In this document: piece by piece, positions 11,513 through 57,648 of the stretch | Position numbering within the stretch: position 1 is the stretch's first letter | Layout: every line of letters begins with the position of its first letter | Source: Spirochaetota bacterium | GTDB lineage: Bacteria > Spirochaetota > Spirochaetia > SPDA01 > B32-G16 | Length of the DNA: 57,650 nt | Assembly (NCBI GenBank): GCA_003645645.1 | Contig: QNBH01000002.1 | Span: 1-57,650, forward strand | Direction of reading: 5' to 3' | Program-made: the position numbers and the translations under genes | Notes under the pieces: model-generated | What the model was told of the DNA's origin: nothing | Database searches by the model: none | The model's input: the letters and a program-made list of their open reading frames with translations, nothing else

Positions 11513-12873
11513 GGAACCGGAAAATGAAAAGAATATTGGTTGCAGATGATGAAGAAGACATGTGTATGATTCTGAAGATGCTTCTGGAAAACGACGGTTA
11601 TGAAGTGATCACTGCAACTACAGGTAAAGATGTACTGCAATACATCACCGACGGAGGTAAACCAGATCTCATAATAACGGATTTAAAGATGCCCGATATA
11701 CAGGGGACGGAAATACTTAACTTTCTTAACGAAACAGGAAGAGATATTCCCTTGGTTCTCATAACGGCTTACGGAACTATTGAAGTTGCGGTGGAGGCCA
11801 TGAAGAACGGGGCTGTAGATTTTATTACCAAACCCTTTAACAAGGATGTTATAAGGCACATAATACGCAGGATATTCCGTATCGATTCCATGGAAAGGGA
11901 GAACGAGTTCTCCAAGGAGGCCATTCAGGAACGCGAAATAGTCTACATAAGCCCTGCCATGCATGAATTGATGGATACCGTGAAAAAGGTAGCCTGTGTG
12001 AAGACTCCCGTGTTGATTGCAGGCGAGAGCGGTTCCGGCAAAGAGCTAGTGGCAAGAGCTCTCCATTACTACGGGGGCACTACTGGAAGTGATGGGGTTG
12101 ATAGGCCGCTGGTAAGCATAAATTGCCCTACTGTTCCGGAATCCCTGTTTGAAAGTGAGTTGTTTGGTTATCAAAGAGGCGCTTTTACGGGGGCATTGCG
12201 AGATTATCAGGGCAAAATCAGAATGGCCGAAGGCGGCACACTTTTTCTTGATGAAATAGGAGACTTACCCCTTTCCATACAACCAAAGCTGTTGCGTTTC
12301 CTGGAAGAAAAAACCTTCGAACCCTTGGGAAGTAACGTGGAAATAAGAGTGAATACCAGGGTAGTGTGTTCTACAAACAGGGATTTAAGGGCGATGGTCA
12401 AGGAGGGGAAGTTCAGGGAGGATCTCTACTACCGTATAAATGCAATTACCCTTGAGGTTCCACCCCTGAGGGAGAGAAGAGAGGATATTTTGCCCCTTGC
12501 AGAATATTTTATAGAAAAGAATGCTCAGGAAACAGGAAAAGGGAGAAAAACCCTCTCCCATCCGGTTGAAAAACTGTTTAAAAGATACAACTGGCCGGGT
12601 AATGTACGAGAATTGAAAAATGTAATCGAACGCGCCGTGGTCCTCTCCACCGATAAGGAGATAAAGCTTACCCATATACCCTCAGAATTACGCTCCAATT
12701 TCAGTCTCGATAAAGAGGAGTTCTCCTGCAATCGGTTTGACAGCATCGAGAGGCAGCTTCTTCTTGAATCTCTTGAGAAGAACAACTGGAACATCACTGC
12801 CGTTGCGAGAGAGCTCGGAACGACAAGAAGCACAATTCGTTACAGGATAAAAAAATTCGGTATAAAAAAATAG
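11509..12873 (+). CDS. NtrC-family sigma-54-dependent response regulator
   Basis: Receiver 'RILVADDEEDM...DLIITDLKMPDIQGTEIL', AAA+ 'GESGSGKELVARALHY', 'GAFTGA', Fis-type HTH at C-term; ATGA overlap with the kinase gene. Confidence 0.96.
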   Translation: MRNRKMKRILVADDEEDMCMILKMLLENDGYEVITATTGKDVLQYITDGGKPDLIITDLKMPDIQGTEILNFLNETGRDIPLVLITAYGTIEVAVEAMKNGAVDFITKPFNKDVIRHIIRRIFRIDSMERENEFSKEAIQEREIVYISPAMHELMDTVKKVACVKTPVLIAGESGSGKELVARALHYYGGTTGSDGVDRPLVSINCPTVPESLFESELFGYQRGAFTGALRDYQGKIRMAEGGTLFLDEIGDLPLSIQPKLLRFLEEKTFEPLGSNVEIRVNTRVVCSTNRDLRAMVKEGKFREDLYYRINAITLEVPPLRERREDILPLAEYFIEKNAQETGKGRKTLSHPVEKLFKRYNWPGNVRELKNVIERAVVLSTDKEIKLTHIPSELRSNFSLDKEEFSCNRFDSIERQLLLESLEKNNWNITAVARELGTTRSTIRYRIKKFGIKK

Positions 12874-12904
12874 TTCAAAGGCAATAATCGGAGTGGCTGT
12901 TTTT

Positions 12905-12940
12905 GTCCGGTAATCGGCTTATATCGTCCGGTTTTATCGA
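12905..12940. promoter_or_regulatory. Putative upstream activating sites for the NtrC-type regulator
   Basis: GTCCGGTAATCGG and GTCCGGTTTTATCG, starts 21 bp apart, ~150-185 bp upstream of the -24 element. Confidence 0.35.
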
Positions 12941-13089
12941 GATTAGAGAAAAATTGTTAGATAAAGTAGAGAGACGGGCAAATCCGAAAAATCAGCGGGA
13001 ACTGAACAAAATAATTAATTTGTATGTCAAGAATTATAAATCATCGTATTCATTCGGTTCCGTAGCCGTAAGACATGAAAGAGATGAGT

Positions 13090-13105
13090 TGGCATAAAAA
13101 TTGCT
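13090..13105 (+). promoter_or_regulatory. Sigma-54 (-24/-12) promoter
   Basis: TGGCAT-AAAAA-TTGCT; GG-N10-GC spacing is exact; ~45 bp upstream of the SBP start and downstream of an NtrC-type regulator gene. Confidence 0.8.
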
Positions 13106-42752: not shown

Positions 42753-44318
42753 TCAAGGAAATCCCTCCACCGAACCGTCAAACCCGAACCGCTCTTTAAG
42801 GGCTTTTCGAAAAGCCGGGGGGTTTATTTTTAAAAGCCTGGCAGCCTGCTCCCTGTTTCCTCCCGATATCTTAAGAGCTTTCTCGTAATAATCCCTCTCT
42901 ATCTGGTATAGTAAAGCCTTAAGATCGACTCCACTTTGTGGAAGCTTGATCTCGATACCGGGAAGGGGCGGCTCCTTGTTAAAATATGACAGGATGGCAG
43001 GGGGAAGTATTTCCGGTCCGATAAGATCGGATTGACTAACGGCACAGACGGAGATAACGGTATTTTCAAGTTGTCTCACATTCCCCGGCCACGGATAGGA
43101 TAGGATATAATGCATTGCCTCTTCGGAGAACCTCTTGTTCTCTCCGTGTTTCTCGTTCCACTCTTTTAAAAATGTTGCCGACAGAAGAGGTATATCTTCT
43201 TGACGTTCCCTGAGCGGGGGAACTTCCAGGGTAACCTGGTTAAGTCTCTCGTATAAGTCTCTTCTGAACGTACCCTCATCGATCATCTGTTCAAGGTTTT
43301 TATTTGTTGCAGCTATGACCCGTATATCAACAGTTAGACCTGTATCTGCCCCCAGGGGAAGAAGGGTTTTCTCTTCAAGCACTCTAAGGAGTTTTGGCTG
43401 GACCTCCGGAGGCAAATCACCGACCTCATCGAGAAATACTATTCCCCGATCGGCTGCACGGAACTGACCCAACCTGCTCCTGCTTGCACCGGTAAAGGCT
43501 CCCTTTTCATGACCGAAGAGCTCGCTTTCTGCAAGCGTCGATGTTATGGAAGCGCAATTAACGGGAAGAAACGGTTTTTCCGCTCTATCACTGTGTTGAT
43601 GGATGAATTTTGCAACTAACTCTTTACCGGTTCCGGTCTCCCCCCTAATTAGTACAGTAATATCATAGGAGGCTATGCGTAAGGCTCTTTGAAGAGTTTC
43701 TCTGATGGGATCGGACTCTCCAATGATTTCTGCTCTTGTTGTGGTAGTAATCCATCGATCCCCGGAACTTTTATTACCCTGAACGCGGATATCATCTCTT
43801 CTTAATTTAATTTCCGGGAAAATCCCCTTATCAAGGTTAACCTCTCTTACCTTGTATGCTCCGCCTGTAAAGCGGGGTGGAATCCCCTGGAGTAATCTGG
43901 CGGGGATGTATCCGGACCTGGCCAGGAGAAACCACACCGTTTGCATCTGAGGAGTTCCCGAATCAAGAAGAATAGACAATTCCACTTTAAGATGTCTGAG
44001 CTGTCCGAGAATCTTATCGACAGCATCCTTTATTTTTGTATAAACTTCCTCGTAATCCACCGGAGAGAAAATATCCAAGTTTATAAAAGCGAATTTTGTT
44101 TTATTGGATTCTGTACCCTTATCCGTTCGTTCGCCCAGTACCTCCTCAACCATACGTGCCCGTTCAAAATACTCATAGCCTGAGCAGAAAAGATAGACCC
44201 TGTGGAAATACCTTTCATTTAAAAGGCAGAGAAGCGGCCCCCATTCCTCGCTCTCTTCGGGATAGGGGTCGCGGTTGCCTACAAAACTAAAGAGAACATC
44301 TATCTTATTAACCGCCAT
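42753..44318 (-). CDS. RtcR-like CARF domain :: sigma-54 AAA+ activator :: Fis-type HTH
   Basis: N-term 'VLFSFVGNRDPY...ILLDSGTPQMQTVWFLLARSGYIPARLLQGIPPRF' resembles the RtcR N-terminal CARF-type domain; 'GETGTGKELVAKFIHQHS', 'GHEKGAFTGASRSRLGQFRAADRG', C-term 'ALKISGGNREQAARLLKINPPAFRKALKERFG'. Confidence 0.93.
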   Translation of the reverse strand: MAVNKIDVLFSFVGNRDPYPEESEEWGPLLCLLNERYFHRVYLFCSGYEYFERARMVEEVLGERTDKGTESNKTKFAFINLDIFSPVDYEEVYTKIKDAVDKILGQLRHLKVELSILLDSGTPQMQTVWFLLARSGYIPARLLQGIPPRFTGGAYKVREVNLDKGIFPEIKLRRDDIRVQGNKSSGDRWITTTTRAEIIGESDPIRETLQRALRIASYDITVLIRGETGTGKELVAKFIHQHSDRAEKPFLPVNCASITSTLAESELFGHEKGAFTGASRSRLGQFRAADRGIVFLDEVGDLPPEVQPKLLRVLEEKTLLPLGADTGLTVDIRVIAATNKNLEQMIDEGTFRRDLYERLNQVTLEVPPLRERQEDIPLLSATFLKEWNEKHGENKRFSEEAMHYILSYPWPGNVRQLENTVISVCAVSQSDLIGPEILPPAILSYFNKEPPLPGIEIKLPQSGVDLKALLYQIERDYYEKALKISGGNREQAARLLKINPPAFRKALKERFGFDGSVEGFP

Positions 44319-44322
44319 TTGC

Positions 44323-44425
44323 CTGCTCCCATATTTTAACCTTTATTGCACAAAGAAGGCTTGCCGCAAATGACGGCATGCCTCTTCAAAGTTAACTGCT
44401 CCCCTATTATAACCTTTATTGCACG
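44323..44425. repeat. 29-30-bp direct repeat in the promoter/5' region of the CARF-sigma54 regulator
   Basis: CTGCTCCCATATTTTAACCTTTATTGCACA (44323-44352) and CTGCTCCCCTATTATAACCTTTATTGCACG (44397-44426); the minus strand of copy 2 reads TTATAAT plus GGGGAGCAG. Confidence 0.85.
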
Positions 44426-44524
44426 CTAGCAAGTATAATTGTTGTTTTTAAAAAATTGTAGATTCAAGATTACAAAAGTTAGCCTTCGGTAACTCTGGTT
44501 TCACATAAAGGCTAAGAAAGGCAG

Positions 44525-44565
44525 AAATTATGCTCAAATTTCTCCAAATTATGCAAATTTTCTCC
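44525..44565. promoter_or_regulatory. Tandem direct repeats, candidate activator binding sites for cas operon
   Basis: AAATTATGCTCAAATTTCTCC (44525-44545) and AAATTATGCAAATTTTCTCC (44546-44565), 11 bp upstream of the -24 element. Confidence 0.6.
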
Positions 44566-44576
44566 CGAAATTGAGA

Positions 44577-44592
44577 TGGCACAAAAATTGCT
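44577..44592 (+). promoter_or_regulatory. Sigma-54 (-24/-12) promoter upstream of cas6
   Basis: TGGCAC-AAAAA-TTGCT; exact GG-N10-GC spacing; oriented toward the cas operon. Confidence 0.82.
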
Positions 44593-44784
44593 ATACAATT
44601 AAAAGAGGAGTTGGGGTGATGTATTCACTTCCTACTGAGGGTTTAATTAATTCCTTGGAAAAGATCGTTTACATAAATGCAGAGAGTTAAGATAACCAAA
44701 AGGTTCGTAAGACCTTTAAGGCGTTACACCCCGATTAGCTCTGTCAGGATTCTGTGGAATTTTTATATTTTTTGGAATATTTAG

Positions 44785-44813
44785 TTGCATTATCCGGAAT
44801 GGTGATTTATAAT
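44785..44813 (+). promoter_or_regulatory. Sigma-70-like promoter upstream of cas6
   Basis: TTGCAT-17 bp-TATAAT; flanked by inverted repeat TTATCCGGAA (44790-44799) / TTCCGGATAA (44837-44846). Confidence 0.55.
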
Positions 44814-44871
44814 AAAAAAGAGTCTTCATTGCGCAGTTCCGGATAAAATAACTACGGATAAGGATGCTGCT

Positions 44872-45786
44872 TTGAAACTTAACCATCAAACATTCGAGTG
44901 CATTTTAAAAAGTGAGCGCTCTATTTATTTCGACACCTTTCCCACCTTTATCTTCAGAAGCGTTATAGGAAAGGAATTGAGAAAAATAAGTTGCCTTTTT
45001 AAGAACAGGAATTGCAGTGAATGTTCTTTAAAAAACACCTGTGCATACTCTTTCATTTTCGAGACGCCGGTGGATAAGGAGAACAGGCTTCTCCATGGCA
45101 GAAACAGGGCTCCCCATCCCTTTACTCTCTACTCGCCTGTAAGTGCGAATGAAACGACAGACACCATAGCCCTGAATATCACGATGTTTGGTAAAAGTAT
45201 CGAGTACTTTCCCTATCTCTATTTCTCGTTAAAGCAGGCGGGAGAGAAGGGGATTTTCAGAGACAGAGTGCGGTTATCGGTGGATTCACTCTTATGTGGA
45301 GATAGCTCGATTCTCTTAGAAGAAGAGAAAATCGATACTTCTGTTCCTCCCCGGGTTTGGCGTATTGAAGGCAGTGAAGATAGGCAGGTAAAAAAGATCA
45401 ATATAAAGTTACTTTCTCCTCTGAGGCTTAAATACAGCGGGAAATATGGCACGGATTTTACCTGTTTCGATTTTCTAAATGCAGTAGAGCGAAGGGCAAG
45501 ACTCTTATGCGGGTTTTTCGGAGAAGACCAGCAGGATAGAAATAAGCCTGTTTTTTCAACCGGCAACAAGCAAATTACGGAGCGAGACCTTATATGGCAC
45601 GACTACAGATACTACTCTTCCCGCCAGAAATCGAGACTTAAAATGGGAGGTACAGTGGGTTCCTTTTCTCTGGAAGGAGAGTTTTCATCCGGGGAGCTTT
45701 CCCTGTTGAAAGGTGCGGAGCTTTTTCAGGTGGGAAAAAACTCTGTTTTCGGCTTCGGAAAGATATCGATTTACGAAGAGGATTAA
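44872..45786 (+). CDS. cas6: CRISPR-associated endoribonuclease Cas6
   Basis: C-terminal Cas6 signature 'GGTVGSFSLEGEFSSGELSLLKGAELFQVGKNSVFGFGKISIYEE'; first gene of the cas operon; TTG start. Confidence 0.88.
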   Translation: MKLNHQTFECILKSERSIYFDTFPTFIFRSVIGKELRKISCLFKNRNCSECSLKNTCAYSFIFETPVDKENRLLHGRNRAPHPFTLYSPVSANETTDTIALNITMFGKSIEYFPYLYFSLKQAGEKGIFRDRVRLSVDSLLCGDSSILLEEEKIDTSVPPRVWRIEGSEDRQVKKINIKLLSPLRLKYSGKYGTDFTCFDFLNAVERRARLLCGFFGEDQQDRNKPVFSTGNKQITERDLIWHDYRYYSSRQKSRLKMGGTVGSFSLEGEFSSGELSLLKGAELFQVGKNSVFGFGKISIYEED

Positions 45787-45789
45787 GCT

Positions 45790-47994
45790 GTGCGGATTGC
45801 CTTAACTTCCCTTGGTCAATCATGGGCTATTATTCCGGAATTGACAGGTTTTTTATATCCTCGTGGGTACGACTTCTTCAAGAATCATCCCGATGCCGGC
45901 AAAATCAACTCATCTCGTGAGTTTCTGGGGGCAGGCAAGCTGGATGAGCTCTGGGTATTGGCAACAGAAGAGAGAAACTCTTTAAAAGCAGTGGATAAAA
46001 TACGGATGTGGAGCGAGCTTGTTTATCTCGATATTCCCATAAGGGTATGGATAACTTCAGGATTGTCGGATCTTTTCTCTCCGGAGGATTGTGCGCATAT
46101 GCGCGATGCCGTGTTGAGGTTGTGTATGCTGTGCAGAAAACTGGTGGGTAGAAATACGGAGATAATTTTCTCCCTGGCCGGTGGGAGAAAAACAATGAGT
46201 GCAGATATTCAATATTCAGCCTCTTTTTTCGGCCCCGGAGTATTGATCCATGTTGCAGACAGAAATATTCCGCCTTATTTCAAAGACCCCGACCCTTCTT
46301 TGCTTTTAATTCCACCGGGTCGAGAACTTGCCTCCTCCTTCATGCCGCTTATTATAGGTAAATATCCCGAGAACAGTCTCTCCGCACAGATCGATAGCAA
46401 GGATTTCACACTTCCCGAGTACACTCCACACAAAAGGCAGTACCGAATCCCCCTTGATAAGAATCTGGCTCAAAAGGTGGATGGGATACTCAATTCGGCA
46501 TCAAACTTCCTGTTCTACCAGATTTTTGATAAGACCTATGCGCAGAAGGAAAGTTCAAACTATTCCAGGTTGTTCGTTCTCCCGCCTGCGAGGATAAAAG
46601 ATTTAAGAAATATCCGGCTGGGAATTGAGCCGGAAAGAACAAAGGAGGAGTTGGTTCTGGTTAAGAAGCTTCCCAAAGCCGATCTTCATTGCCATCTCGG
46701 AGGAGTACTCACGGTAGAGGAGATTGTAGAGATAGCCCGAATACATGAAAATGAAGTTGGATGCTGGGAGAGAAAACACGAAGGCTTTCACAGGAAGAGA
46801 GAGGAGTGGATGCAGATTGCTTCGAAGGGAGATCCCACTGCCGTTTCGGAAAAAATAGGAGGGGAGAGGATAAGAGAATTGAGGGTTATGTTTAAAGAGA
46901 TCCCCCAGCCTTTTACCGTATGCGGGTTTCTCCTTTGCTTTATAGAGAATCCCCATCTCCTTGAGCAGGCCTTGTATGGGCGATGGATGAACGAGTCCGA
47001 TTTTACCGGTATTGGGATGAATGAGTACGAACGTTTGGGCGACCTGCAGGGGTCTGCATTGCTTCAGACAGAACCTGTTATCAGGGCGGTGGTGAGAAAA
47101 ACCGTAGAAAAGTGCATAGAGGATAATGTTACATACCTGGAATTACGCTGTTCACCTCAGAATTATACAAGGGGCGGACTTAAAATAGAGAAGGTTTTCG
47201 GAATAATAGATGATGAGCTTAAGAAAGCTTCCCACCGGATAGAGAACGGTATAATCCTAATAACAAGCAGGCACAGAAAAATGGACGAAATCTTCTCTAC
47301 TATAGAGTTAATAGATCATCTAGTTGAAGAAAACAGGGCGGGAAGGATCCTTGGGGTGGATCTGGCGGGAGATGAAACCTCATTGGCGCCTGCAAACCTT
47401 AGAGAGCACTTTCTTAGATTTATGGACAGGTGTATGCATATAACAATTCACGCCGGAGAGAACCAGGTTGCCGGGAATATCTGGGAGGCGGTGTATCACC
47501 TGAGTGCGGAGAGAATCGGGCACGGTCTTACCCTTTCGTATAAACCCGAACTAATGAAAAAGTTTCTCGACAGAGGCATCGGTATCGAGATGTGTCCGTC
47601 GAGCAACAGACAGATTGTGGGGTATACAGACTTCTGCCAGGAAAAAGTCGATAAAGCTATTTCTTCCGGCATAAAAGCAGAAGCACAATCCTCATCAATT
47701 TCGGAGAAGAGGATTCCCCATACCTACCCCTTAAAGGAGTTTCTCGATTATGGATTGAAGGTTTCGGTTAACACAGACAACATGGGTATCTCCCGTACAA
47801 GCCTTTCGAAAGAGCTGCTTCAGGCAGCCCGATTAACTCCCAGGGGATTGTCCGTAATGGAGATACTCCAGCTTATTAAGAACGCCTATTCTTCTGCATT
47901 TACAGATCACGATACGAGGAAAAAGCTAATTCTCGATTCCGAGAGGAGAATAATCGAGCTATTTCAGAGTGAGGAGGTTTTACCAGGTGGATGA
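45790..47994 (+). CDS. cad1: CARF-adenosine deaminase fusion (Cad1/CAAD-type type III effector)
   Basis: CARF motif 'IIFSLAGGRKTMSADIQYSASFFG'; ADA motifs 'KADLHCHLGGVLTVEEIV', 'ITIHAGENQ', 'ERIGHGLTL', 'VSVNTDNMGIS'. 734 aa. Confidence 0.92.
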   Translation: MRIALTSLGQSWAIIPELTGFLYPRGYDFFKNHPDAGKINSSREFLGAGKLDELWVLATEERNSLKAVDKIRMWSELVYLDIPIRVWITSGLSDLFSPEDCAHMRDAVLRLCMLCRKLVGRNTEIIFSLAGGRKTMSADIQYSASFFGPGVLIHVADRNIPPYFKDPDPSLLLIPPGRELASSFMPLIIGKYPENSLSAQIDSKDFTLPEYTPHKRQYRIPLDKNLAQKVDGILNSASNFLFYQIFDKTYAQKESSNYSRLFVLPPARIKDLRNIRLGIEPERTKEELVLVKKLPKADLHCHLGGVLTVEEIVEIARIHENEVGCWERKHEGFHRKREEWMQIASKGDPTAVSEKIGGERIRELRVMFKEIPQPFTVCGFLLCFIENPHLLEQALYGRWMNESDFTGIGMNEYERLGDLQGSALLQTEPVIRAVVRKTVEKCIEDNVTYLELRCSPQNYTRGGLKIEKVFGIIDDELKKASHRIENGIILITSRHRKMDEIFSTIELIDHLVEENRAGRILGVDLAGDETSLAPANLREHFLRFMDRCMHITIHAGENQVAGNIWEAVYHLSAERIGHGLTLSYKPELMKKFLDRGIGIEMCPSSNRQIVGYTDFCQEKVDKAISSGIKAEAQSSSISEKRIPHTYPLKEFLDYGLKVSVNTDNMGISRTSLSKELLQAARLTPRGLSVMEILQLIKNAYSSAFTDHDTRKKLILDSERRIIELFQSEEVLPGG

Positions 47995-48628
47995 AATGAT
48001 CCTTTGTGTACCACGAAAAATTATTCCGAAAGAGTTGAGGAATGATAGAGTCTCAAGCCCCTTGCAGTGGGAGGTGCTTGCCACTGCACTTACATCATCT
48101 TCCCTGATGTTTCTTCCAAGAAGAGAAGTAGAGGGGAACCCTTCTTTAAAGCAGATTATACCTTACGTGCTTATTAGAAACTCTGTCGGATCCCTGCTTT
48201 GTTATGAGCGGGCAGGTTCAGAGGAGAGGCTTCACGGCCAGTTGTCGCTGGGTATCGGGGGGCATGTAAGCATGGAAGATATAGAGGGCCGGCCCAATAC
48301 GAAAGGGGAATTAAACTTGCTTACAGCAGGAGAGAGCTTCCTTGAGCAGGTAGTGTGTAAGGCAATCGAACGGGAACTGGAGGAGGAAGCGGGATTAGAT
48401 GACGGAGCCAGGGCTCGATTCATGGGTGTTATAAACGAGGAGTTGACCCCTGTCGGTAGAGTGCATTTCGGACTTGTTTTTGAGTACCTGCTTAATCGGG
48501 GTGATAGTGCGGTTACCGGAGAAGAGCTTGCCCACTCATCCTGGATGGATATGGAGGAGATTTATGCACGCAGGGATGAGTTTGAATTGTGGTCACAACT
48601 CGCCCTTGAACTGGTAGAAAGAGATTAG
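47987..48628 (+). CDS. Nudix hydrolase-like protein
   Basis: 'LSLGIGGHVSMED' and Nudix box 'GESFLEQVVCKAIERELEEEAGL' (REUxEExGU conserved; first E of the GX5E box is Q). Overlaps cad1 end; ORF track starts at 47969. Confidence 0.82.
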   Translation: MDEMILCVPRKIIPKELRNDRVSSPLQWEVLATALTSSSLMFLPRREVEGNPSLKQIIPYVLIRNSVGSLLCYERAGSEERLHGQLSLGIGGHVSMEDIEGRPNTKGELNLLTAGESFLEQVVCKAIERELEEEAGLDDGARARFMGVINEELTPVGRVHFGLVFEYLLNRGDSAVTGEELAHSSWMDMEEIYARRDEFELWSQLALELVERD

Positions 48629-48646
48629 GAAAGGAGGAGGAAGTAG

Positions 48647-51022
48647 ATGGATAGAGGTTTAGACTCAGAGTTTTATGAAGTTGTTTTGGCAGGATTATTA
48701 CACGATATAGGTAAGTTTGCTCAGAGGACAGGTCTTGATAAATATAAAAAGACAGAAATGGAAGGCCAGCTATGCAAGAAAGCAGAAAAAGGAGATTATT
48801 ATACACACCAACATGTACTTTACACATTGGGAGTATTGGAATCATTTAAAGGGATATTTCCCGATGGTATAGATATAATTAATGTAATAAATCTTGCCTC
48901 AAGCCATCACAATCCCTCAAAGCATCTCGATAAAATTATTTCCCATGCAGACATAATTTCTTCCGGACATGACAGAAGATCTGAAAAGGAGCTTGAAAAT
49001 GAAAAAAACCAGAAATATTACGAAAAACCTCTAATAAGTGTTTTATGGAGCGTCAGTTTGCCCGGGAAAGTAAACGGCAATGAGGAAAATTGTAAATTAC
49101 CTTTAAAAAAATTATCCCCGGAGACGATCTTTCCACGAAGCGATATTTCTATTTCAAAAAAAGATTACCTTGAATTATGGGAAGATTTTGAAAACGATTT
49201 ATATGAGTTGAGAAATCTGGATATACACCACTTTCTTAGTGCATTAAATACGATACTTGAACAATACACATTGTGCATACCTTCAACCACAGTGGATGAT
49301 CCGGATATTAGTTTATACGATCATCTTATTACAACTGCTGCCTTCTCTGCGGTACTATACAAATATCATAAACAAACGGAATCTCTTGACTCTGATAAGT
49401 CCATTTCAGATACCACCAAAGAGAAATTTCTCTTTGTTATAGGTGATGTCAGCGGCATACAAAGATACATATTTAATCTAAAAACTACAAAACATAACGC
49501 AAAAATGCTTAGGGCCAAATCTTTTGAGATTCAATATATTGCCCAATCGGTTGCAAATACACTTCTCGAAGAATGCGGATTACCTATCTTTTGTGCTTTG
49601 ATGAATGCTGGTGGCAGATTTTTGCTTGTTCTTCCGAATACAGAAAAAACGGCCAAAATACTTAAAGATTTTCGCAGAGCCTGTGAATCATTTTTCCTGG
49701 AAAGGTATTTCGGAGAACTTTCTTTAAATATTTCAAAGGGTGTTTCTGTTGCGGAAAAAGATTTAATTGGTGAAAAAGCTAAAGAATTATTTAGGAAATT
49801 ATCTTTTGATTCTGCTGAGGCAAAGCAGAAAAAACTACAGACTGCTCTTTCATCGGTTGAAAATCATATCATAGGTAAAGAATACAAGAAAATACAGGAG
49901 TATAATTTGGTTTGTAAAAATTGTGATTGCAGAGCTGTAGTTTATGATAATGAGGAAAAGTTATGTCCGCCATGCAAGGTTCTTGTAACTATAGGTACAA
50001 AGCTTCCAAAAGTGAGTTATATAGGTTTCAAACCTCTGGCCTGGAAGAGGGGTAAATTAGATTTTAGCTTAAAAGATGTTCTGCTCAGAGAGGAAGAATC
50101 AGATTTTCCCCCAGGCATAATAATCAATACTGTAAATAGTTATACCCCTGGAAAACCTCTATATAGTATACCCTATCATATTCCGGTTAACAGTGAGTCC
50201 GGAGATCCGTTAACATTCGAAAAATTAGCTGAAAAGAATGAAGGTGCAAAAAAAATTGCAATGTTTAAGGCCGACCTGGATAATCTTGGTGCAATTTTTT
50301 CTTTTGGATTGAAAAAAAGACTTTCTATTTCACGTTATGTTTCTTTAAGCAGGAGCATCAATTATTTTTTCTCTACATGGTTAAACCACGAAATAAAAAA
50401 TTACAAAAAAAATAATAATCCGTCCTTCTCAGATATATACACCGTATTTTCCGGAGGTGACGATCTATGTGTGATAGGTCCATGGGAAAGAGTTATCGAT
50501 TTTGCTTTGCATGTGAGGAAGAAATTTGCAGAGTTCACAGCAGGTAATACTTCACTGACTATTTCAGGCGGTATAGTTTTAGCGGGAAGTAGCTTACCTG
50601 TAAGCTCTATCGCCCATAGTGCAGAAGAAGCACTCGATGCTTCCAAGGAATTGGACGGTAAGAATGCACTTACTATTTTTAATACGACTATGAAATGGGA
50701 TGAGGCTGAAGAGATGGTTAAAGCAGGAGAGAAAATAACTCGACTGTTGAAAGAAAACGGAAAAAAAGAAGAGAAGATCGGACACGGAATTGTTTACAGA
50801 TTGATAGAATACAGTGATCGGGCTTTAAAAGTTAAGAACGGTAATATAAAAAGCAAGAATGTGCTATGGCGAAGTCATTTTTTCTATGATGTTGCTCGCA
50901 ATTTAAAAAACTTGGAAAAGGACGATATGGAGTGGTTTATCAGCCTTGCAGATGAACATTCCATAAAATATTTAAGGGTACCGGCGAGTTATGCACTCTA
51001 CCGGTTAAGAAAAAAAACTTAA
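48647..51022 (+). CDS. csm1: Type III-A Cas10/Csm1
   Basis: HD 'LLHDIGKFAQRTG', 'FVIGDVSGIQRYIFNLKTTKHNAKMLRAKSFEIQ', zinc ribbon CxxC, palm 'FSGGDDLCVIGPW'. 791 aa. Confidence 0.97.
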   Translation: MDRGLDSEFYEVVLAGLLHDIGKFAQRTGLDKYKKTEMEGQLCKKAEKGDYYTHQHVLYTLGVLESFKGIFPDGIDIINVINLASSHHNPSKHLDKIISHADIISSGHDRRSEKELENEKNQKYYEKPLISVLWSVSLPGKVNGNEENCKLPLKKLSPETIFPRSDISISKKDYLELWEDFENDLYELRNLDIHHFLSALNTILEQYTLCIPSTTVDDPDISLYDHLITTAAFSAVLYKYHKQTESLDSDKSISDTTKEKFLFVIGDVSGIQRYIFNLKTTKHNAKMLRAKSFEIQYIAQSVANTLLEECGLPIFCALMNAGGRFLLVLPNTEKTAKILKDFRRACESFFLERYFGELSLNISKGVSVAEKDLIGEKAKELFRKLSFDSAEAKQKKLQTALSSVENHIIGKEYKKIQEYNLVCKNCDCRAVVYDNEEKLCPPCKVLVTIGTKLPKVSYIGFKPLAWKRGKLDFSLKDVLLREEESDFPPGIIINTVNSYTPGKPLYSIPYHIPVNSESGDPLTFEKLAEKNEGAKKIAMFKADLDNLGAIFSFGLKKRLSISRYVSLSRSINYFFSTWLNHEIKNYKKNNNPSFSDIYTVFSGGDDLCVIGPWERVIDFALHVRKKFAEFTAGNTSLTISGGIVLAGSSLPVSSIAHSAEEALDASKELDGKNALTIFNTTMKWDEAEEMVKAGEKITRLLKENGKKEEKIGHGIVYRLIEYSDRALKVKNGNIKSKNVLWRSHFFYDVARNLKNLEKDDMEWFISLADEHSIKYLRVPASYALYRLRKKT

Positions 51023-51033
51023 GGAGGAATGAT

Positions 51034-51462
51034 ATGAGCATTGTTTTTTACGAACAAGGATCGGACTTGGTTAGATCGGAGTTATTCGATAAGGATGCAA
51101 AGCAATGGGCCGAGAGGTTGGTTAAACCAATAGGAGAGAGAAAAGTAAAGGGAGTAAGCAGGCATCAATTCAGAAGACTATTCGAAGAGGTAAAACGGTT
51201 ACAGAAGATGCTTATCAATGAAAAAAGAAAGTGGGCTTATGTTAAGCCCTTTGTGAAAATGCTTAAGCCCAAAACAGCATACACGGTTGCCCGGGCAAAA
51301 GATAAAGAAAAAAATGCCGGTGTGTATTACGATGCATTAAAAGACCTTTTTAATGAAGGTATAGATGGAGTAAATACAGAGCGAGACTTTAGAGCTTTCT
51401 GTGATTTCCTCGAAGCAGTTTACGGATACTACTACGAATTAGGCGGTGTAAATACAAAATAA
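51034..51462 (+). CDS. csm2: Csm2
   Basis: 142 aa small helical protein between csm1 and csm3; 'HQFRRLFEEVKRLQ...VKPFVKMLKPKTAYTVAR...FCDFLEAVYGYYYELG'. Confidence 0.92.
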   Translation: MSIVFYEQGSDLVRSELFDKDAKQWAERLVKPIGERKVKGVSRHQFRRLFEEVKRLQKMLINEKRKWAYVKPFVKMLKPKTAYTVARAKDKEKNAGVYYDALKDLFNEGIDGVNTERDFRAFCDFLEAVYGYYYELGGVNTK

Positions 51463-51491
51463 TGATAATCAATTATTAAGGAGGATTAAAA

Positions 51492-52184
51492 ATGGCTTAC
51501 AACAAACACTACATTAAAAGTATAACCGGAAAAATTAAAGTATTAACAGGACTGCACATTGGTGCAGGCAGTGATGTTATCGAAATAGGCGGAATGGACA
51601 ATCCCATAATCAAGAATCCCATAACAGGTGAGCCCTATATTCCAGGTTCATCTTTAAAGGGAAAGATGAGAAGCCTTATGGAATGGTACTTCAACAAAGT
51701 AAAAGTTAACGGCGGAGAACCGTGTAAATGCGGAGAACCTGATTGTGAAATCTGCAGGGTTTTCGGTTGTGCCATACAAAATACAGAGAAGTCAGTTGAA
51801 AAATCAAAAAAGCGAGGTCCTACAAGACTTATAGTGAGGGATGCATTTCTCACTGAGGAAACTAAAGAGAAATTTGCCGGTAAGAATCTTGTTGAAGATA
51901 AAAGTGAAAACTCAATAAACAGACTCACTGCTGCTGCCACCCCTCGCCATCTGGAAAGGGTAGTACCTGGAACTGAATTCGACTTTTCATTATCCTACAG
52001 GTTTTTTGACATGGAAGATGGTTTTGAGATAGATGAGAGATATTTCAGGGATGTAGTTCTAAAAGCATTGGCCATTCTGGAACATGATTTTTTAGGAGGA
52101 GGAGGAAGCAGGGGCAGTGGTAAAATTATGTTTGTAGACTTAAGAGATGAAAAGGAGAAGGAAGTAATATTGCCGGAGGTGTAA
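51492..52184 (+). CDS. csm3: Csm3 (Cas7 family)
   Basis: 'KIKVLTGLHIGAGSDVIEIGGMDNPIIKNPITGEPYIPGSSLKGKMRSLME', 'GGGGSRGSGKIMF'. Confidence 0.97.
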   Translation: MAYNKHYIKSITGKIKVLTGLHIGAGSDVIEIGGMDNPIIKNPITGEPYIPGSSLKGKMRSLMEWYFNKVKVNGGEPCKCGEPDCEICRVFGCAIQNTEKSVEKSKKRGPTRLIVRDAFLTEETKEKFAGKNLVEDKSENSINRLTAAATPRHLERVVPGTEFDFSLSYRFFDMEDGFEIDERYFRDVVLKALAILEHDFLGGGGSRGSGKIMFVDLRDEKEKEVILPEV

Positions 52185-52189
52185 GATTT

Positions 52190-53134
52190 ATGAAAACCTT
52201 TAAAATACAGGTTGAGGTTAAATCGCCATTACTTACTCCTCTCCATGGCGATACTCTTTTCGGCCATTTGTGCTGGGGAATAGTCAGGCATGAGGGTGAA
52301 GATGCTCTACAGGAGTTTTTCTTAAAGTACAAAGATGTTAATACCATACCTATTATCTTATCCAATGCTTTCCCGGAAGATACTATTCCATACCCACAGT
52401 TAAGTCCTTCGATGTTAAAAGAGACTGACAATATAGAGGAATATAAATTAAGAAAAAAAGAAAAAAAATATTCCTGCATTCCTGCAGAGTTGATTCTTAA
52501 TAACAATCAAAAAATATCAAGAGAGACGATTCACAATTCGGTCAGAGAAAAAACGATCGAGTCATATAGGGCATGCTCCAGATTACGAAATAAAATAAAT
52601 AGGTTAAGCAATACCACATTTGAAGACTCTGTATATCCGGTTGAGGAAATCTGGTATTTCGAACGATATAAAAACGGCAAGTCCTTACCAGCTCTTTTAG
52701 ACATATATGCACTATCCAATGAGAATGAAAATCGAATCGAAGAATTACTAGAGTGGGCAATAGAGACAGGTTATGGAGCAGACAAGTCTCTGGGGTATGG
52801 AATACTTAATATAAAAGGAATCGAAGAAGTTTTCTTTCCCGAGACTGGTAACAGATGTATGGCTTTAGGTCATTTTGTACCAGAGAAAAACGAGAATCTT
52901 AAAAACTTAAAAGCAGATGTATTTACAAAATACGGTAAGTTGAGTGGGGATAAATTATTATCGTCGAATCCATTTAAAAAACCTATTGTCATGTACCGTG
53001 AAGGAGCAACGTTTGATTTTTCTGGTCAACAATTTGTAGGAACCCTTTTGAAAGATGTACATGCAGACAATAGAATCAGACATCATGCTTTTGCTCCTTT
53101 AATACGATTCACAGAGGAGGAGAAGACTTCATGA
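52190..53134 (+). CDS. csm4: Csm4 (Cas5 family)
   Basis: 'VEVKSPLLTPLHGDTLFGHLCWGIV', 'TGYGADKSLGYGILNIKG'. Confidence 0.94.
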   Translation: MKTFKIQVEVKSPLLTPLHGDTLFGHLCWGIVRHEGEDALQEFFLKYKDVNTIPIILSNAFPEDTIPYPQLSPSMLKETDNIEEYKLRKKEKKYSCIPAELILNNNQKISRETIHNSVREKTIESYRACSRLRNKINRLSNTTFEDSVYPVEEIWYFERYKNGKSLPALLDIYALSNENENRIEELLEWAIETGYGADKSLGYGILNIKGIEEVFFPETGNRCMALGHFVPEKNENLKNLKADVFTKYGKLSGDKLLSSNPFKKPIVMYREGATFDFSGQQFVGTLLKDVHADNRIRHHAFAPLIRFTEEEKTS

Positions 53135-54285
53135 ACAGCATAAAACATAGATACATATTAAAAATTACACCTTTGACTGCAGTACATATAGGAACTGGAT
53201 TGGAACTAACTCCTTTTAACTATGTCATTAAGTTAAATAAAAATAGGACTCCGACTTTATATAGATTTATTCCGGGACAGGTAATTTCATTTTTAAGTTC
53301 TGAACAAAAAAAAGAACTTGAGAAATTATCAGAAAGCGGAAATATTCTTCCTCTAAGAAAGTTTCTTTATAATAACTTCAAAGCTGGTATGGAAATATAT
53401 TCATTACCTGTTTCAAAAGATATAGCAAAATCTTACGTTAATAATCTTCAATCAGAGAGAAATCAATTAATTATTAACGAAATGTACCGTAAAGGGGATA
53501 TTTACTCTCCTGTAATTCCCGGTAGTTCGCTGAAGGGAGCCATCAGAACGGCGGTATTGAATAAAAAAGTACGAGAAAAAACAAGCAGGGGATATGCTGT
53601 GCCTAAAATAAATAAAGAAATTCAAAAGCAGGCTTTGAATTATAAAGATGCAAAAGACGATCCTTTCAGAGCTGTCAGCATCTCGGATTGTGTTATTAAG
53701 AAAAGAAGTAAGAATCAAATTGTATCCAATCTTTTTATATATAAGAATACCAGGGGAGAAAACTCGAGAATAGAGATGCAGATGACCTATGAGCTTATAA
53801 GGGGGAAATTGTTTAACGGCAGTGCAATTGGGGGAGTTGAATTACTCATTGATAATCCTTTAATTGAGTTTCCACCTGTTGGAAATTGGGAAGGTATAAA
53901 AGTTAAACTCAATATTAAAGAGATTGCCGATTCCTGCAACAAGTTTTATAAGGATGCATTTAAAGAAGAGTTTAACAAACACTACGGTTCTTGTAACGAG
54001 TTTCTGCTAAAGAATAATCTCGAAATGCTTGAAAGGGAAATAGATGACATAGGTTCTGATTCTAATAAAATTTCATTTTTACTTAGAGTTGGAAGATTCA
54101 GTCAGGTGGAATGTGTAACCCTGGAAGAGCCATACAGATCACCATTCAACAAAAAAGGATATGGTAAAACAAGAACGCTTGCAAGGTACAATGATCTGGA
54201 GATGCCCTTAGGATGGGTTAGGGTAGATGTAGAGAAAGCATACATAAATGGAAAGCCAACTGAAAGGGCGGTATATCATAACTAG
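53131..54285 (+). CDS. csm5: Csm5 (Cas7 family)
   Basis: 'LKITPLTAVHIGTGLELTPFNYVI', 'YSPVIPGSSLKGAIRTAVLNKKV', 'RVGRFSQVECVTLE'. Confidence 0.95.
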   Translation: MNSIKHRYILKITPLTAVHIGTGLELTPFNYVIKLNKNRTPTLYRFIPGQVISFLSSEQKKELEKLSESGNILPLRKFLYNNFKAGMEIYSLPVSKDIAKSYVNNLQSERNQLIINEMYRKGDIYSPVIPGSSLKGAIRTAVLNKKVREKTSRGYAVPKINKEIQKQALNYKDAKDDPFRAVSISDCVIKKRSKNQIVSNLFIYKNTRGENSRIEMQMTYELIRGKLFNGSAIGGVELLIDNPLIEFPPVGNWEGIKVKLNIKEIADSCNKFYKDAFKEEFNKHYGSCNEFLLKNNLEMLEREIDDIGSDSNKISFLLRVGRFSQVECVTLEEPYRSPFNKKGYGKTRTLARYNDLEMPLGWVRVDVEKAYINGKPTERAVYHN

Positions 54286-54296
54286 GTAAAACTGAA

Positions 54297-54701
54297 ATGA
54301 AACCTTCATTTTTCATATTGATGAATCACGAACTAACGCCTCACCAGGAAAAGGAAGTAAAGGAAGTGATGAAATGCAGGTGTATCATCACTCCGCCAAA
54401 AAAGATAAAAGATATCTGGATAAAAATAACTCCTTACGGAATGATCGACACAGAAGCATTAGAGGAGATTACGGATTATCTATCAATAAAAGCCAGGGAA
54501 GGAGATTACGTTCTAGTCCAGGGAGAGTTCGGAGCCACCTTCTATATCGTAGATTACTGTTTCTGGAATGGGTTGGTTCCTGTTTATGCAACTTCCGAGA
54601 GGCGGTACAACGAAAGACATACAGAAGAGGGAAGCATAGAAAGACATCATATATTCAGCCATGTGCAGTTCAGAAAATATGTTAGATGGAGGAATCCATG
54701 A
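54297..54701 (+). CDS. csx20: Csx20-like protein (putative CARF-fold ring nuclease)
   Basis: 134 aa; 'LMNHELTPHQEKEVKEVM', 'GDYVLVQGEFGATFYIVDYCFWNGLVPVYATSERRYNERHTEEGSIERHHIFSHVQFRKYVRW' matches my recollection of Csx20. Confidence 0.75.
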   Translation: MKPSFFILMNHELTPHQEKEVKEVMKCRCIITPPKKIKDIWIKITPYGMIDTEALEEITDYLSIKAREGDYVLVQGEFGATFYIVDYCFWNGLVPVYATSERRYNERHTEEGSIERHHIFSHVQFRKYVRWRNP

Positions 54702-55990
54702 GTAACGTATTTTTATCCTTTCTGGGAACAAGCGATTATAAAACGTGTAATTACCATTACGGAAACAAGATAAGAAAAACTGTAGTATTCGCCCAGGAAG
54801 CTATTCTTAATTTTTTTTGCATGCACTTTAAAGAAAATGACAAGATACTAATTTTCCTTACAGAAAAAGCAAAGGAGAAAAATTGGGAGAAAAACAGTAA
54901 AGGTATTGGACTTAAAGAAACCATTGAAAACTTAGAACTTCCTGCACAATTGATACCGGTATCAATTCCAGAAGGCAACTCGGAAGAAGAAATATGGAAA
55001 ATTTTCGAAATTGTTTATGAGCACCTTGAACCGGAGGATGAGGTGATCCTCGATATAACCCACTCATTCAGATCGATCCCCATGTTAACAATGGTTCTTC
55101 TCAACTACACGCGATTCCTTAAAGATATAAAAATAAAAGGTATCTATTACGGAGCCTACGAAGCACGTATTGGTGAAGATGCGCCTGTTTTCGACCTTAC
55201 GAGTTTCGAACGGTTGCAACGTTGGAGTATTGCAGCAGAAAACTTTGTAAATCATGGGATAACGGATGCCATTGCAAATCTTGTTTATCCTCAGGTGAAT
55301 CCATTGTTAAAAGAAAGCATGGGCTCGAATGAAAGTGCGAAGGCGGAAAGTTATTTTGCTAAACTTTTAAACAGAGTCGGAAGTTATTTCAGTACGGTGA
55401 GGGGGAAAAGAATCTACATGGGTAGAGAAATAAATCGCCTTAAGCAGAATCTCAATCAAGTAAAAGAGGGCGAACTGATAATCAAACCCTTAAGACCATT
55501 GTTGGATAAAGTCCGTCAAAAGATAGAAGCTTTCAAGCCTGAGTCCATAGACAATATGATAGAAGCAGTAAAATGGTGTATAAATCATGATCTTATTCAG
55601 CAGGGGATAACAATGCTGCAGGAGACAATTATCTCTTATATCCTCGAAGAGAACGGGCTTGAGTGGTATGCGAAGGATAGAGCAACATCTGAGAAGAAAA
55701 AGAAAGTTAAGAGGTTAAGAGAAGATTTATCCCAGGCGATCCATCTATATGGCAAAAACGGCGATAGAAACGATTGGGATTATGAGTTTAAAATTCACAG
55801 CAAAATAATCAAGAAGGTAATAGAAAGTGAATCTTTTCAACGACTGTTTAAAACCAATGAAAAATTAAGGGATCTGCGTAACGATATAAATCACGCCGGT
55901 TTGATAGATGATTTTGAGCCGGGCAATTTTAAAGATAAACTTAAAAGCTCATTTGAAGAGATAAAGAAAATTATATTGTATGGAGGATAA
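54698..55990 (+). CDS. csx1: Csx1/TM1812-family CARF-HEPN ribonuclease
   Basis: CARF 'DEVILDITHSFRSIPMLTMVLLNY'; HEPN RX4H 'LRDLRNDINHAG'. ORF track start 54686; ATG 54698 preceded by GGAGG. Confidence 0.9.
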   Translation: MSNVFLSFLGTSDYKTCNYHYGNKIRKTVVFAQEAILNFFCMHFKENDKILIFLTEKAKEKNWEKNSKGIGLKETIENLELPAQLIPVSIPEGNSEEEIWKIFEIVYEHLEPEDEVILDITHSFRSIPMLTMVLLNYTRFLKDIKIKGIYYGAYEARIGEDAPVFDLTSFERLQRWSIAAENFVNHGITDAIANLVYPQVNPLLKESMGSNESAKAESYFAKLLNRVGSYFSTVRGKRIYMGREINRLKQNLNQVKEGELIIKPLRPLLDKVRQKIEAFKPESIDNMIEAVKWCINHDLIQQGITMLQETIISYILEENGLEWYAKDRATSEKKKKVKRLREDLSQAIHLYGKNGDRNDWDYEFKIHSKIIKKVIESESFQRLFKTNEKLRDLRNDINHAGLIDDFEPGNFKDKLKSSFEEIKKIILYGG

Positions 55991-55992
55991 AT

Positions 55993-57078
55993 GTGTCCAC
56001 CATATATATTGTTTCCGATTACGGAAAACTTATTAAGAAAAATAAAACACTTCAACTTACAAGCAACGATGGAACCACTACAATCATTTTCCCATATAAA
56101 ACCGATCAACTGGTTGTGATGGGAAGTATCGAGATAACAGGGCCTGCACTCAAACTTCTTATGAGATACAACATCGATACCGTTTTCCTTGGAAAAAACG
56201 GAAAATACAACGGTAAAATAGCTTTCCAGGAGAGCAAGAACGTATTCTTAAGACAGAAACAGTTTAAGATGCTTGAGGATAGGGATTTTGTACTCGATTT
56301 CTCAAAATCGGTTGTCAGGGCAAAGCTTAAAAATCAGCTTACCTTCATGCAGAGAATCCACCGCAGAAGGGAAAATGCAAAGCAGTTGCATAAAACGATA
56401 TTAAACATGAAGCTTAATCTCGAAAGGGTTGAGGAAGCCGGAAGTGCGGAACAGTTGAGAGGGATTGAGGGGCTCGGAGCGAGATACTTCTTCTCTCTTT
56501 TTCGGGAAAATATAATACAGGACTGGGCTGTTTTCAAGGGAAGGAGTATGCATCCTCCCGAAGATAACGTTAATGCGGTGTTGAGTTTTCTCTACACCCT
56601 CCTGTTTTTTCGTGTGGATGGAGCCATCGAATCTGAAGGGCTGGATAGTTTTGTAGGATATTTTCATTCCCTGGATTACGGGAAAAGAACCCTGTCCTTT
56701 GATTTAATGGAGGAGTTTCGCACTCCCCTTGCCGATACGCTTTGTTGTTCTCTTTTCAATCTGGCAATTCTGGAAGAAAATGACTTTGAAGAGGTCGTTT
56801 TTTCTGTCGATGACATCGATTACCCTCTTGAGGATGATGGTGAGGAGGAGAAAGGAGAAGGCTCTGTACTATATCAAGAGAAAAAAGGGGTGTTGCTTAC
56901 AAAGAAGGGGTTGAGAAAAGCACTTAAACAATTCGAGAAAAAACTGGAGGATCAATATTATTATCAACCTTTAAAGAGACAGATAAGTTATAAGAAACTT
57001 ATAAGAGAACAGGTAAAACATTTTAAGAGGGTATTAAACGGAGAAGAGAAAATGTACAAGCCAATGGTAATAAAATAA
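55993..57078 (+). CDS. cas1: Cas1 integrase
   Basis: 'LMRYNIDTVFLGKNGKYNGKIAFQESKNVFLRQKQF', 'LRGIEGLGARYFFSLF', 'VGYFHSLDYGKRTLSFDLMEEFRTPLAD'. GTG start. Confidence 0.96.
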   Translation: MSTIYIVSDYGKLIKKNKTLQLTSNDGTTTIIFPYKTDQLVVMGSIEITGPALKLLMRYNIDTVFLGKNGKYNGKIAFQESKNVFLRQKQFKMLEDRDFVLDFSKSVVRAKLKNQLTFMQRIHRRRENAKQLHKTILNMKLNLERVEEAGSAEQLRGIEGLGARYFFSLFRENIIQDWAVFKGRSMHPPEDNVNAVLSFLYTLLFFRVDGAIESEGLDSFVGYFHSLDYGKRTLSFDLMEEFRTPLADTLCCSLFNLAILEENDFEEVVFSVDDIDYPLEDDGEEEKGEGSVLYQEKKGVLLTKKGLRKALKQFEKKLEDQYYYQPLKRQISYKKLIREQVKHFKRVLNGEEKMYKPMVIK

Positions 57079-57091
57079 TAGAAAGACATAT

Positions 57092-57367
57092 ATGATTTAT
57101 ATGTTCTGTTATGATATATCTGATGATAAAAGACTTCGCAGAACGGCTAAGGTTCTGGAGCAGTTTGGGATCAGGGTTCAGAAATCATTTTTCCAGTGTG
57201 AGATGGAAAAGCAGAGGATGCAGGAGCTAAAAGATAAAATAAGGAAAGTAATTAACGAAAGAAAAGATTATTTCTTTATTTATCCGTTATGTGAAGATTG
57301 CAGCAGAAAGGCTCTGACCGATGGCACGGGAGAACTTATCAGGTTGGAGGCTTTTGAGATCTTATGA
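57092..57367 (+). CDS. cas2: Cas2 (first copy)
   Basis: 'MFCYDISDDKRLRRTAKVLEQFGIRVQKSFFQCEM'. Confidence 0.94.
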   Translation: MIYMFCYDISDDKRLRRTAKVLEQFGIRVQKSFFQCEMEKQRMQELKDKIRKVINERKDYFFIYPLCEDCSRKALTDGTGELIRLEAFEIL

Positions 57368-57648
57368 AGCACTGGCTTGTTATCTATGATATCAGGAATG
57401 AGAAACGATTACACCGTGTGGCAAAAACAATGGAACGGTATGGGACAAGAGTACAGAAATCAGTATTTGAGATAGAAGCCGGAAATAAAACCATTAAAAG
57501 ACTCAGAAATCAAGTTAATGATATAATAGAAAGTGAAGATTTTGTAGTATATTTCGACATTTGCGAGAGGGACTGGCAGAAAAGAATGAAGTACGGTCCG
57601 AAAAAGTTTAAGGGGAAACCCTGTGATAAAGAATATCTTATAATTTAA
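57364..57648 (+). CDS. cas2: Cas2 (second copy)
   Basis: 'LVIYDIRNEKRLHRVAKTMERYGTRVQKSVFEIEA'; ATGA overlap with first cas2. Confidence 0.92.
   Translation: MKHWLVIYDIRNEKRLHRVAKTMERYGTRVQKSVFEIEAGNKTIKRLRNQVNDIIESEDFVVYFDICERDWQKRMKYGPKKFKGKPCDKEYLII

Follow-up and report, generated by a model that had tools for sequence, protein, structure and literature searches.

Regulators of the RtcR type combine a CARF domain with a sigma-54-dependent output. RtcR, the regulator of rtcBA in E. coli and Salmonella, is a CARF-AAA+-HTH sigma-54 activator encoded divergently from its target, which functions in RNA repair, and responds to RNA ends together with RtcA/RtcB, not to cyclic oligoadenylates (cOA). 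The E. coli protein is not activated by oligoadenylates or cOA (PMC9650030). The same architecture defines the RtcR_PspF2 CARF_AAA_HTH family (PADLOC model PDLC01995), and RtcR-like regulators are known from defence neighbourhoods: a link to restriction-modification (R-M) systems was noted by Makarova in 2014 (PMC4012209), and a further association exists with CoCoNuTs, for which cyclic-phosphate RNA made by HEPN was proposed as feedback to RtcR-like CARFs (PMC11090510). In the literature surveyed, control of type III transcription by the system's own signalling is described only for Csa3 and for CalpL-CalpT-CalpS, both of them triggered by cA4 (PMC9704534, PMC11229360). Csa3 (CARF-wHTH) binds DNA directly and has no AAA+ domain, while in the Calp system a sigma factor is released by proteolysis.

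The locus described here differs from both in that the predicted regulator is an enhancer-binding protein acting on sigma-54, and from the RtcR_PspF2 family described so far in its putative target, a type III-A operon; the surveyed literature contains no such pairing. Protein family and operon type are each known; the pairing is new. The main new result is that the cas promoter bears the predicted binding site of the regulator's own family. Control of the cas operon by the regulator through sigma-54 is considered highly probable. The preferred reading of the whole locus, held at a probability of roughly 0.55, is a general infection-responsive sigma-54 defence switch paired with a III-A operon, the ligand of which would be a general product of infection or RNA damage. 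If true, a complete III-A operon preceded by a sigma-54 promoter and an activator site would represent a third route by which type III transcription is controlled by its own signalling.

The regulator and the divergent type III-A operon

The window, i.e. the whole stretch of spirochaete DNA analysed (57,650 nucleotides), carries on the minus strand a gene (42753 to 44318) encoding a protein of 521 amino acids, which was assigned by ORF and profile searches to the CARF-AAA+-HTH sigma-54 enhancer-binding proteins (bEBPs). The CARF domain covers residues 1 to 170 (43809 to 44318; AlphaFold2, Foldseek and profile match) and is matched by the RtcR CARF profile PF06956 at 4.4e-10. It is followed by an AAA+ sigma-54 interaction domain with lid (about residues 198 to 436; 43011 to 43727), in which GAFTGA is present and which is matched by PF00158 (Sigma54_activat, 2.8e-67) and PF25601 (1.3e-22), and by a Fis-type helix-turn-helix (residues 472 to 509; 42792 to 42905; PF02954, 3.7e-7). 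The top PADLOC model is RtcR_PspF2--CARF_AAA_HTH (PDLC01995; 3.2e-135, residues 8 to 508), so that the protein belongs to a family already catalogued as a defence model. The domain order proposed in an earlier, sequence-only reading of this DNA agrees with the Pfam and PADLOC matches. The protein shares 32% identity with RtcR and is not RtcR proper, scoring 333.7 bits with the NCBIfam RtcR equivalog, below the cut-off of 650. Neither rtcA nor rtcB is encoded in the window, as had been observed before; a single RtcB is encoded on another contig of the genome, and no bEBP was found next to it. A genome-wide search identified rpoN.

The operon divergent from the regulator (44872 to 57648, plus strand) comprises cas6 (44872 to 45786; Pfam 4.2e-11, PADLOC 2.3e-72), a gene for a Cad1-type CARF-adenosine deaminase (CARF5-ADA, 45790 to 47994; PADLOC CARF5--CARF_ADA, 1.2e-179), a gene for a Nudix-family protein (47969 to 48628; Pfam NUDIX, 5.4e-5), cas10/csm1 (48647 to 51022; TIGR02578, 5.6e-188), csm2, csm3, csm4 and csm5 (51034 to 54285; profile searches, csm3 via tblastn to other III-A operons), csx20 (54297 to 54701; NF040559, 2.9e-41), the CARF-HEPN gene csx1 (54686 to 55990; PADLOC 5e-117) and cas1, cas2 and cas2 (55993 to 57648; Pfam). 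The translation of csm1 contains HD (HDIGKF) and GGDD motifs, and the protein is a predicted cOA synthase. With Csm1 carrying the cyclase motif, Csm2 to Csm5 and Cas6, the operon is an intact type III-A operon, and the gene list given earlier was reproduced with Pfam, PADLOC and NCBIfam-type profiles plus tblastn. The contig ends 2 bases past the last cas2. The Nudix gene, located between the CARF-deaminase gene and csm1, overlaps the former by 26 bp, and its product may process deaminated nucleotides. The two adjoining cas2 genes (57092 to 57648) are diverged from each other; the same arrangement is found in the spirochaete III-A loci L113, L114 and L122.

The sigma-54 promoter and a predicted activator-binding site

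Sigma-54 promoters are silent without an activator, and the system could therefore stay off until infection. A consensus scan located the -24/-12 element TGGCACAAAAATTGCT at 44577 to 44592 (plus strand), facing the cas operon, with 0 mismatches to TGGCACRNNNNTTGCW. When one mismatch to this consensus was permitted, two matches were obtained in the window compared to 0.65 expected, and in the whole 4-Mb genome the perfect pattern TGGCAYRNNNNTTGCW occurs 18 times, compared to 2 for the reversed control pattern. Near-perfect -24/-12 elements are concentrated within 450 bp upstream of the regulator genes of the family (31 in 16.4 kb versus 26 in the remaining 373 kb of the same loci, an enrichment of about 27-fold). 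The perfect element and this enrichment sustain the -24/-12 promoter that the sequence-only reading had placed before the cas operon. Of the family elements, 21 are directed away from the regulator; several others lie 39 to 53 bp before its start, which suggests autoregulation.

A count of spaced 4-mers (dyads) in the regulator upstream regions, made without a motif given in advance, ranked the -24/-12 element first and a GTAACTnnGGTT palindrome second. The matrix refined from the latter reads CGTAACTnCGGTTnCG, an imperfect palindrome, and exceeds 13 bits in 26 of the 36 loci. In the window, dyad count and matrix define a predicted upstream activating site (UAS), CTTCGGTAACTCTGGTTTCACATA, at 44484 to 44507 (plus strand; 16-nt core at 44488 to 44503), which had been overlooked before. 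With a model rebuilt without the window's own copy, GGTAACTCTGGTTTCA at 44488 to 44503 ranked first in the entire 57.6 kb, and its score was reached by none of 300 shuffled intergenic sequences. The centre of the UAS is separated from the -24 by 82 bp. A palindrome at 30 to 260 bp from a divergent -24/-12 is found in 20 of the 36 loci, and the window shares this architecture with the other spirochaete members. Among the 18 perfect -24/-12 sites of the genome, only the one before cas6 is closely preceded by a strong palindrome; weaker palindromes near two others (13.4 and 12.8) are located downstream of those promoters. The predicted binding site is thus newly defined, and since site and promoter are located to the base, the circuit is directly testable.

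Two further features of the intergenic region were considered as activator sites. A 29-bp direct repeat (44323 to 44351 and 44396 to 44424, 93% identical) with a spacing of 73 bp, about seven helical turns, is placed between the regulator start and the predicted UAS, and a terminator-like stem is found at 44362 to 44378. Both were set aside as activator sites because the family-wide motif lies elsewhere.

Protein architecture, predicted binding site, promoter element and rpoN are all present in the sequence, and from these we infer how regulator, site and promoter might work together. By analogy with RtcR, the CARF domain would keep the AAA+ ring inactive as long as no signal is present. Occupation of the CARF pocket by an infection-linked nucleotide would then allow the regulator to assemble at the GTAACTnnGGTT site (44484 to 44507), and the GAFTGA contact would open the sigma-54 polymerase waiting at 44577 to 44592, turning on cas6 through cas2.

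Distribution of the regulator family and of the pairing

A CARF domain search of public genomes yielded 38 regulator loci, nearly all from Spirochaetota, which overlap and extend a set first found by whole-genome searches; 36 loci entered the motif analysis and 39 genomes with the regulator the Cas10 count given below. Type III genes were found near none of about 40 relatives of the regulator (38 loci examined). Of the 395 genomes searched in the class, 16 encode a Csm1 of the window's type. At the 11 other spirochaete III-A loci examined, neither a relative of the regulator nor a good -24/-12 upstream of cas6 was found (in L118, where cas6 was not found, the region before csm1 was scanned instead); binding site and promoter therefore belong to the regulator and not to III-A operons. 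Two genomes, G029 and G087, encode both regulator and III-A operon at separate places, and no -24/-12 was found upstream of cas6 in either (in G029 the visible stretch is about 500 bp).

Conservation of the gene pair, which had been set beforehand as a test, failed from both sides, i.e. at the 38 regulator loci and the 11 III-A loci, and a conserved bEBP-type III pairing was rejected. On the genomes searched, the pairing is a single known event. The earlier proposal that the regulator switches on its own operon is consequently retained with regard to sigma-54 control, on the grounds of the promoter and the family binding site, and abandoned with regard to conservation of the pairing.

Several relatives adjoin other defence genes. 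BREX genes (brxA-brxB-brxC) are found beside the regulator in L016, L036 and L045, and brxA alone in L056, where the contig ends. Other neighbours are PDC-M27 in L015, an Hma helicase with a methylase in L058 (L059 has a similar first gene), DruE3 and DpdE-like proteins (Druantia-like) in L055, and UvrD/GajB-like helicases, while a distant relative, encoded by a plasmid of Pseudomonas, adjoins a type I R-M operon. The spirochaete family of ligand-gated sigma-54 activators might accordingly be seen as a transferable switch that turns on phage-defence operons. Against a defence switch stands the observation that in many relatives the genes at the divergent promoter are not recognisable as defence (outer-membrane barrel, P13-like, PEGA lipoprotein, WYL-transglutaminase).

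Within the window's own clade, the product of the divergent gene is usually a WYL-transglutaminase protein, and in L016 BREX comes next. The fusion of WYL to a transglutaminase-like domain beside the CARF activator was detected in L016 (1 to 3637), L027, L028 and L032, and WYL alone in L038. The divergent gene in L058 (9023 to 9592) encodes a membrane protein similar to Borrelia P13 (4.9e-21), and control by the family may extend to envelope proteins.

The CARF pocket and its possible ligand

The AlphaFold2 model of the CARF domain (pLDDT 91.4) gave as best Foldseek matches EiCsm6 bound to a cA6 mimic and cA6-bound StCsm6', and in a profile search of the PDB, Csm6 CARFs were the only significant relatives (6tug, 2.9e-6). 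The N-terminal domain, for which structure prediction and profile search had been suggested as a check, is thus a predicted CARF fold with Csm6 as its nearest relative in structure and sequence; both have GNxDP and SGTPQM motifs. The two proteins differ in output, an HEPN RNase in Csm6 and transcription in the regulator. In the profile alignment, N15, T122 and Q124 of the regulator correspond to Asn10, Thr114 and Gln116 of EiCsm6, which belong to a residue subset whose mutation lowers cA6-dependent activity or almost eliminates it (PMC7101355). T122 is invariant in the regulator family and Q124 is conserved in >90% of its members, whereas E. coli RtcR keeps only the threonine and has lost the equivalents of N15 and Q124. 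The ring-nuclease residue Thr11 of Csm6 is replaced by Arg16, compatible with a sensor that spares its ligand. Since the cA6 residues are conserved and the cOA-unresponsive RtcR is without two of them, the modelled Csm6-like pocket, unlike that of RtcR, favours an oligoadenylate-type ligand or cOA.

A clear Cas10 palm (E below 1e-30) was detected in only 3 of the 39 regulator genomes, with a possible contig-edge fragment in a fourth; the window's own genome has a cOA synthase, but the family as a whole does not occur together with one. Weak Cas10-palm matches (E above 1e-7, mostly at positions 57 to 132) were read as GGDEF proteins, as Cas10-free E. coli likewise yields such matches. CBASS SMODS cyclases were not evident in the regulator genomes, only weak matches being obtained, and CBASS was rejected as a ligand source. 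Incompleteness of the metagenome-assembled genomes (MAGs) is unable to explain the absence of Cas10 from about nine of ten genomes. Judged from this distribution, Cas10-made cOA cannot be the general signal of the family; in the window's genome it could act as such, provided that the ligand belongs to this chemical class.

Genomes without Cas10 contain the same regulator, pocket and binding site, which makes a general product of infection or RNA damage, e.g. 2',3'-cyclic phosphate ends of RNA or oligoadenylates, a more likely ligand than Cas10-made cOA alone. A signal of this kind, formed without Cas10, would explain the distribution better than Cas10-made cOA. Cleavage by Csx1 or ring-opened cOA could supply cyclic-phosphate ends and thereby an indirect feedback. 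What fits less directly is an RNA end in a Csm6-like cA6 pocket, and the family sharpens the question of what such a pocket senses where neither Cas10 nor an evident CBASS is present.

The sequence-only reading had proposed a direct feedback, in which target recognition leads Cas10 to produce cA4 or cA6, which binds the CARF domain and raises sigma-54 transcription of the same operon. This is regarded as possible, though with the odds clearly against it. A GGDD-bearing Cas10 is encoded in the same operon, and the similarity to cA6-bound Csm6, the three retained cA6 residues, two of which are missing from cOA-unresponsive RtcR, and the Arg16 of a non-destroying sensor are all in agreement with it. 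It is opposed by the conservation of the pocket in genomes without Cas10 or evident CBASS, by the absence of the type III pairing from all relatives and by G029 and G087, in which regulator and III-A operon are kept apart. Moreover, Csx1 and Csx20 suggest a cA4 system, yet the pocket is cA6-like. This is at odds with a survey in which cA6-activated Csm6 was never found alongside a cA4-activated effector (PMC11229360).

A variant, which we consider doubtful and slightly less likely still, describes a sigma-54 alarm family sensing an oligoadenylate-type messenger through the Csm6-like pocket. The messenger would be made by Cas10 in this genome, giving true positive feedback, and would come from another source in the Cas10-free genomes with BREX, Hma or Druantia-like genes.

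Sigma-70-like elements and the cas6 leader

Overlapping the -24/-12 element, a scan detected a sigma-70-like promoter, TTGAGA-17-TACAAT (44571 to 44599, plus strand; 10/12 matches), which the sequence-only reading had missed and given which the cas operon may also be constitutive. A possible basal sigma-70 promoter, TTGCAT-17-TATAAT (44785 to 44813, plus strand), was read from the sequence upstream of cas6; its -10 is perfect (TATAAT, 44808 to 44813, 59 bp before cas6), its -35 is weak and it falls under the cut-off of the sigma-70 scan. With such elements near cas6, some sigma-70 transcription of the operon is possible; any feedback would need a basal supply of Cas10. The proposed circuit is weakened by the overlapping sigma-70-like promoter and by the single palindrome of the window, compared to two copies about 22 bp apart in several relatives.

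These elements would also suit an incidental pairing: regulator and -24/-12 promoter would be a relic or control a leader RNA, with sigma-70 driving transcription of the cas operon from 44571 to 44599 or from the TATAAT at 44808. The length of the 5' leader (about 270 nt) and the fact that the combination of regulator and III-A operon was seen only once point in the same direction. On the other hand, the -24/-12 and cas6 have no further gene between them, and regulator ORF, predicted binding site and promoter are all intact. A known structured RNA in the leader was dropped as a candidate, as no Rfam family was matched and folding was no better than that of shuffled sequences (z-score -0.5). 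An incidental pairing is therefore judged improbable. An assembly artefact, in which a fragment with regulator and promoter was wrongly fused to an unrelated cas operon, is very improbable: the junction is known from a single MAG contig (57.65 kb), with no independent copy among three genomes of the order, and the regulator's relatives never adjoin cas genes, but GC content drops and recovers smoothly across the intergenic region, no long repeat marks a junction, and the genome is about 97% complete with 4% contamination.

An 18-nt inverted repeat (83%) at 44782 to 44854 flanks the TATAAT upstream of cas6 and is possibly an operator or a Cas6-binding hairpin.

Elsewhere in the window, the region from 10112 to 13105 is predicted to form a second sigma-54 circuit. 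Its first gene (10112 to 11512) encodes an unusual fusion of an ABC-transporter ATPase-like domain to a histidine-kinase domain and is followed by a gene for an NtrC-type regulator and by a perfect -24/-12 at 13090, located before a gene encoding a periplasmic sugar-binding protein.
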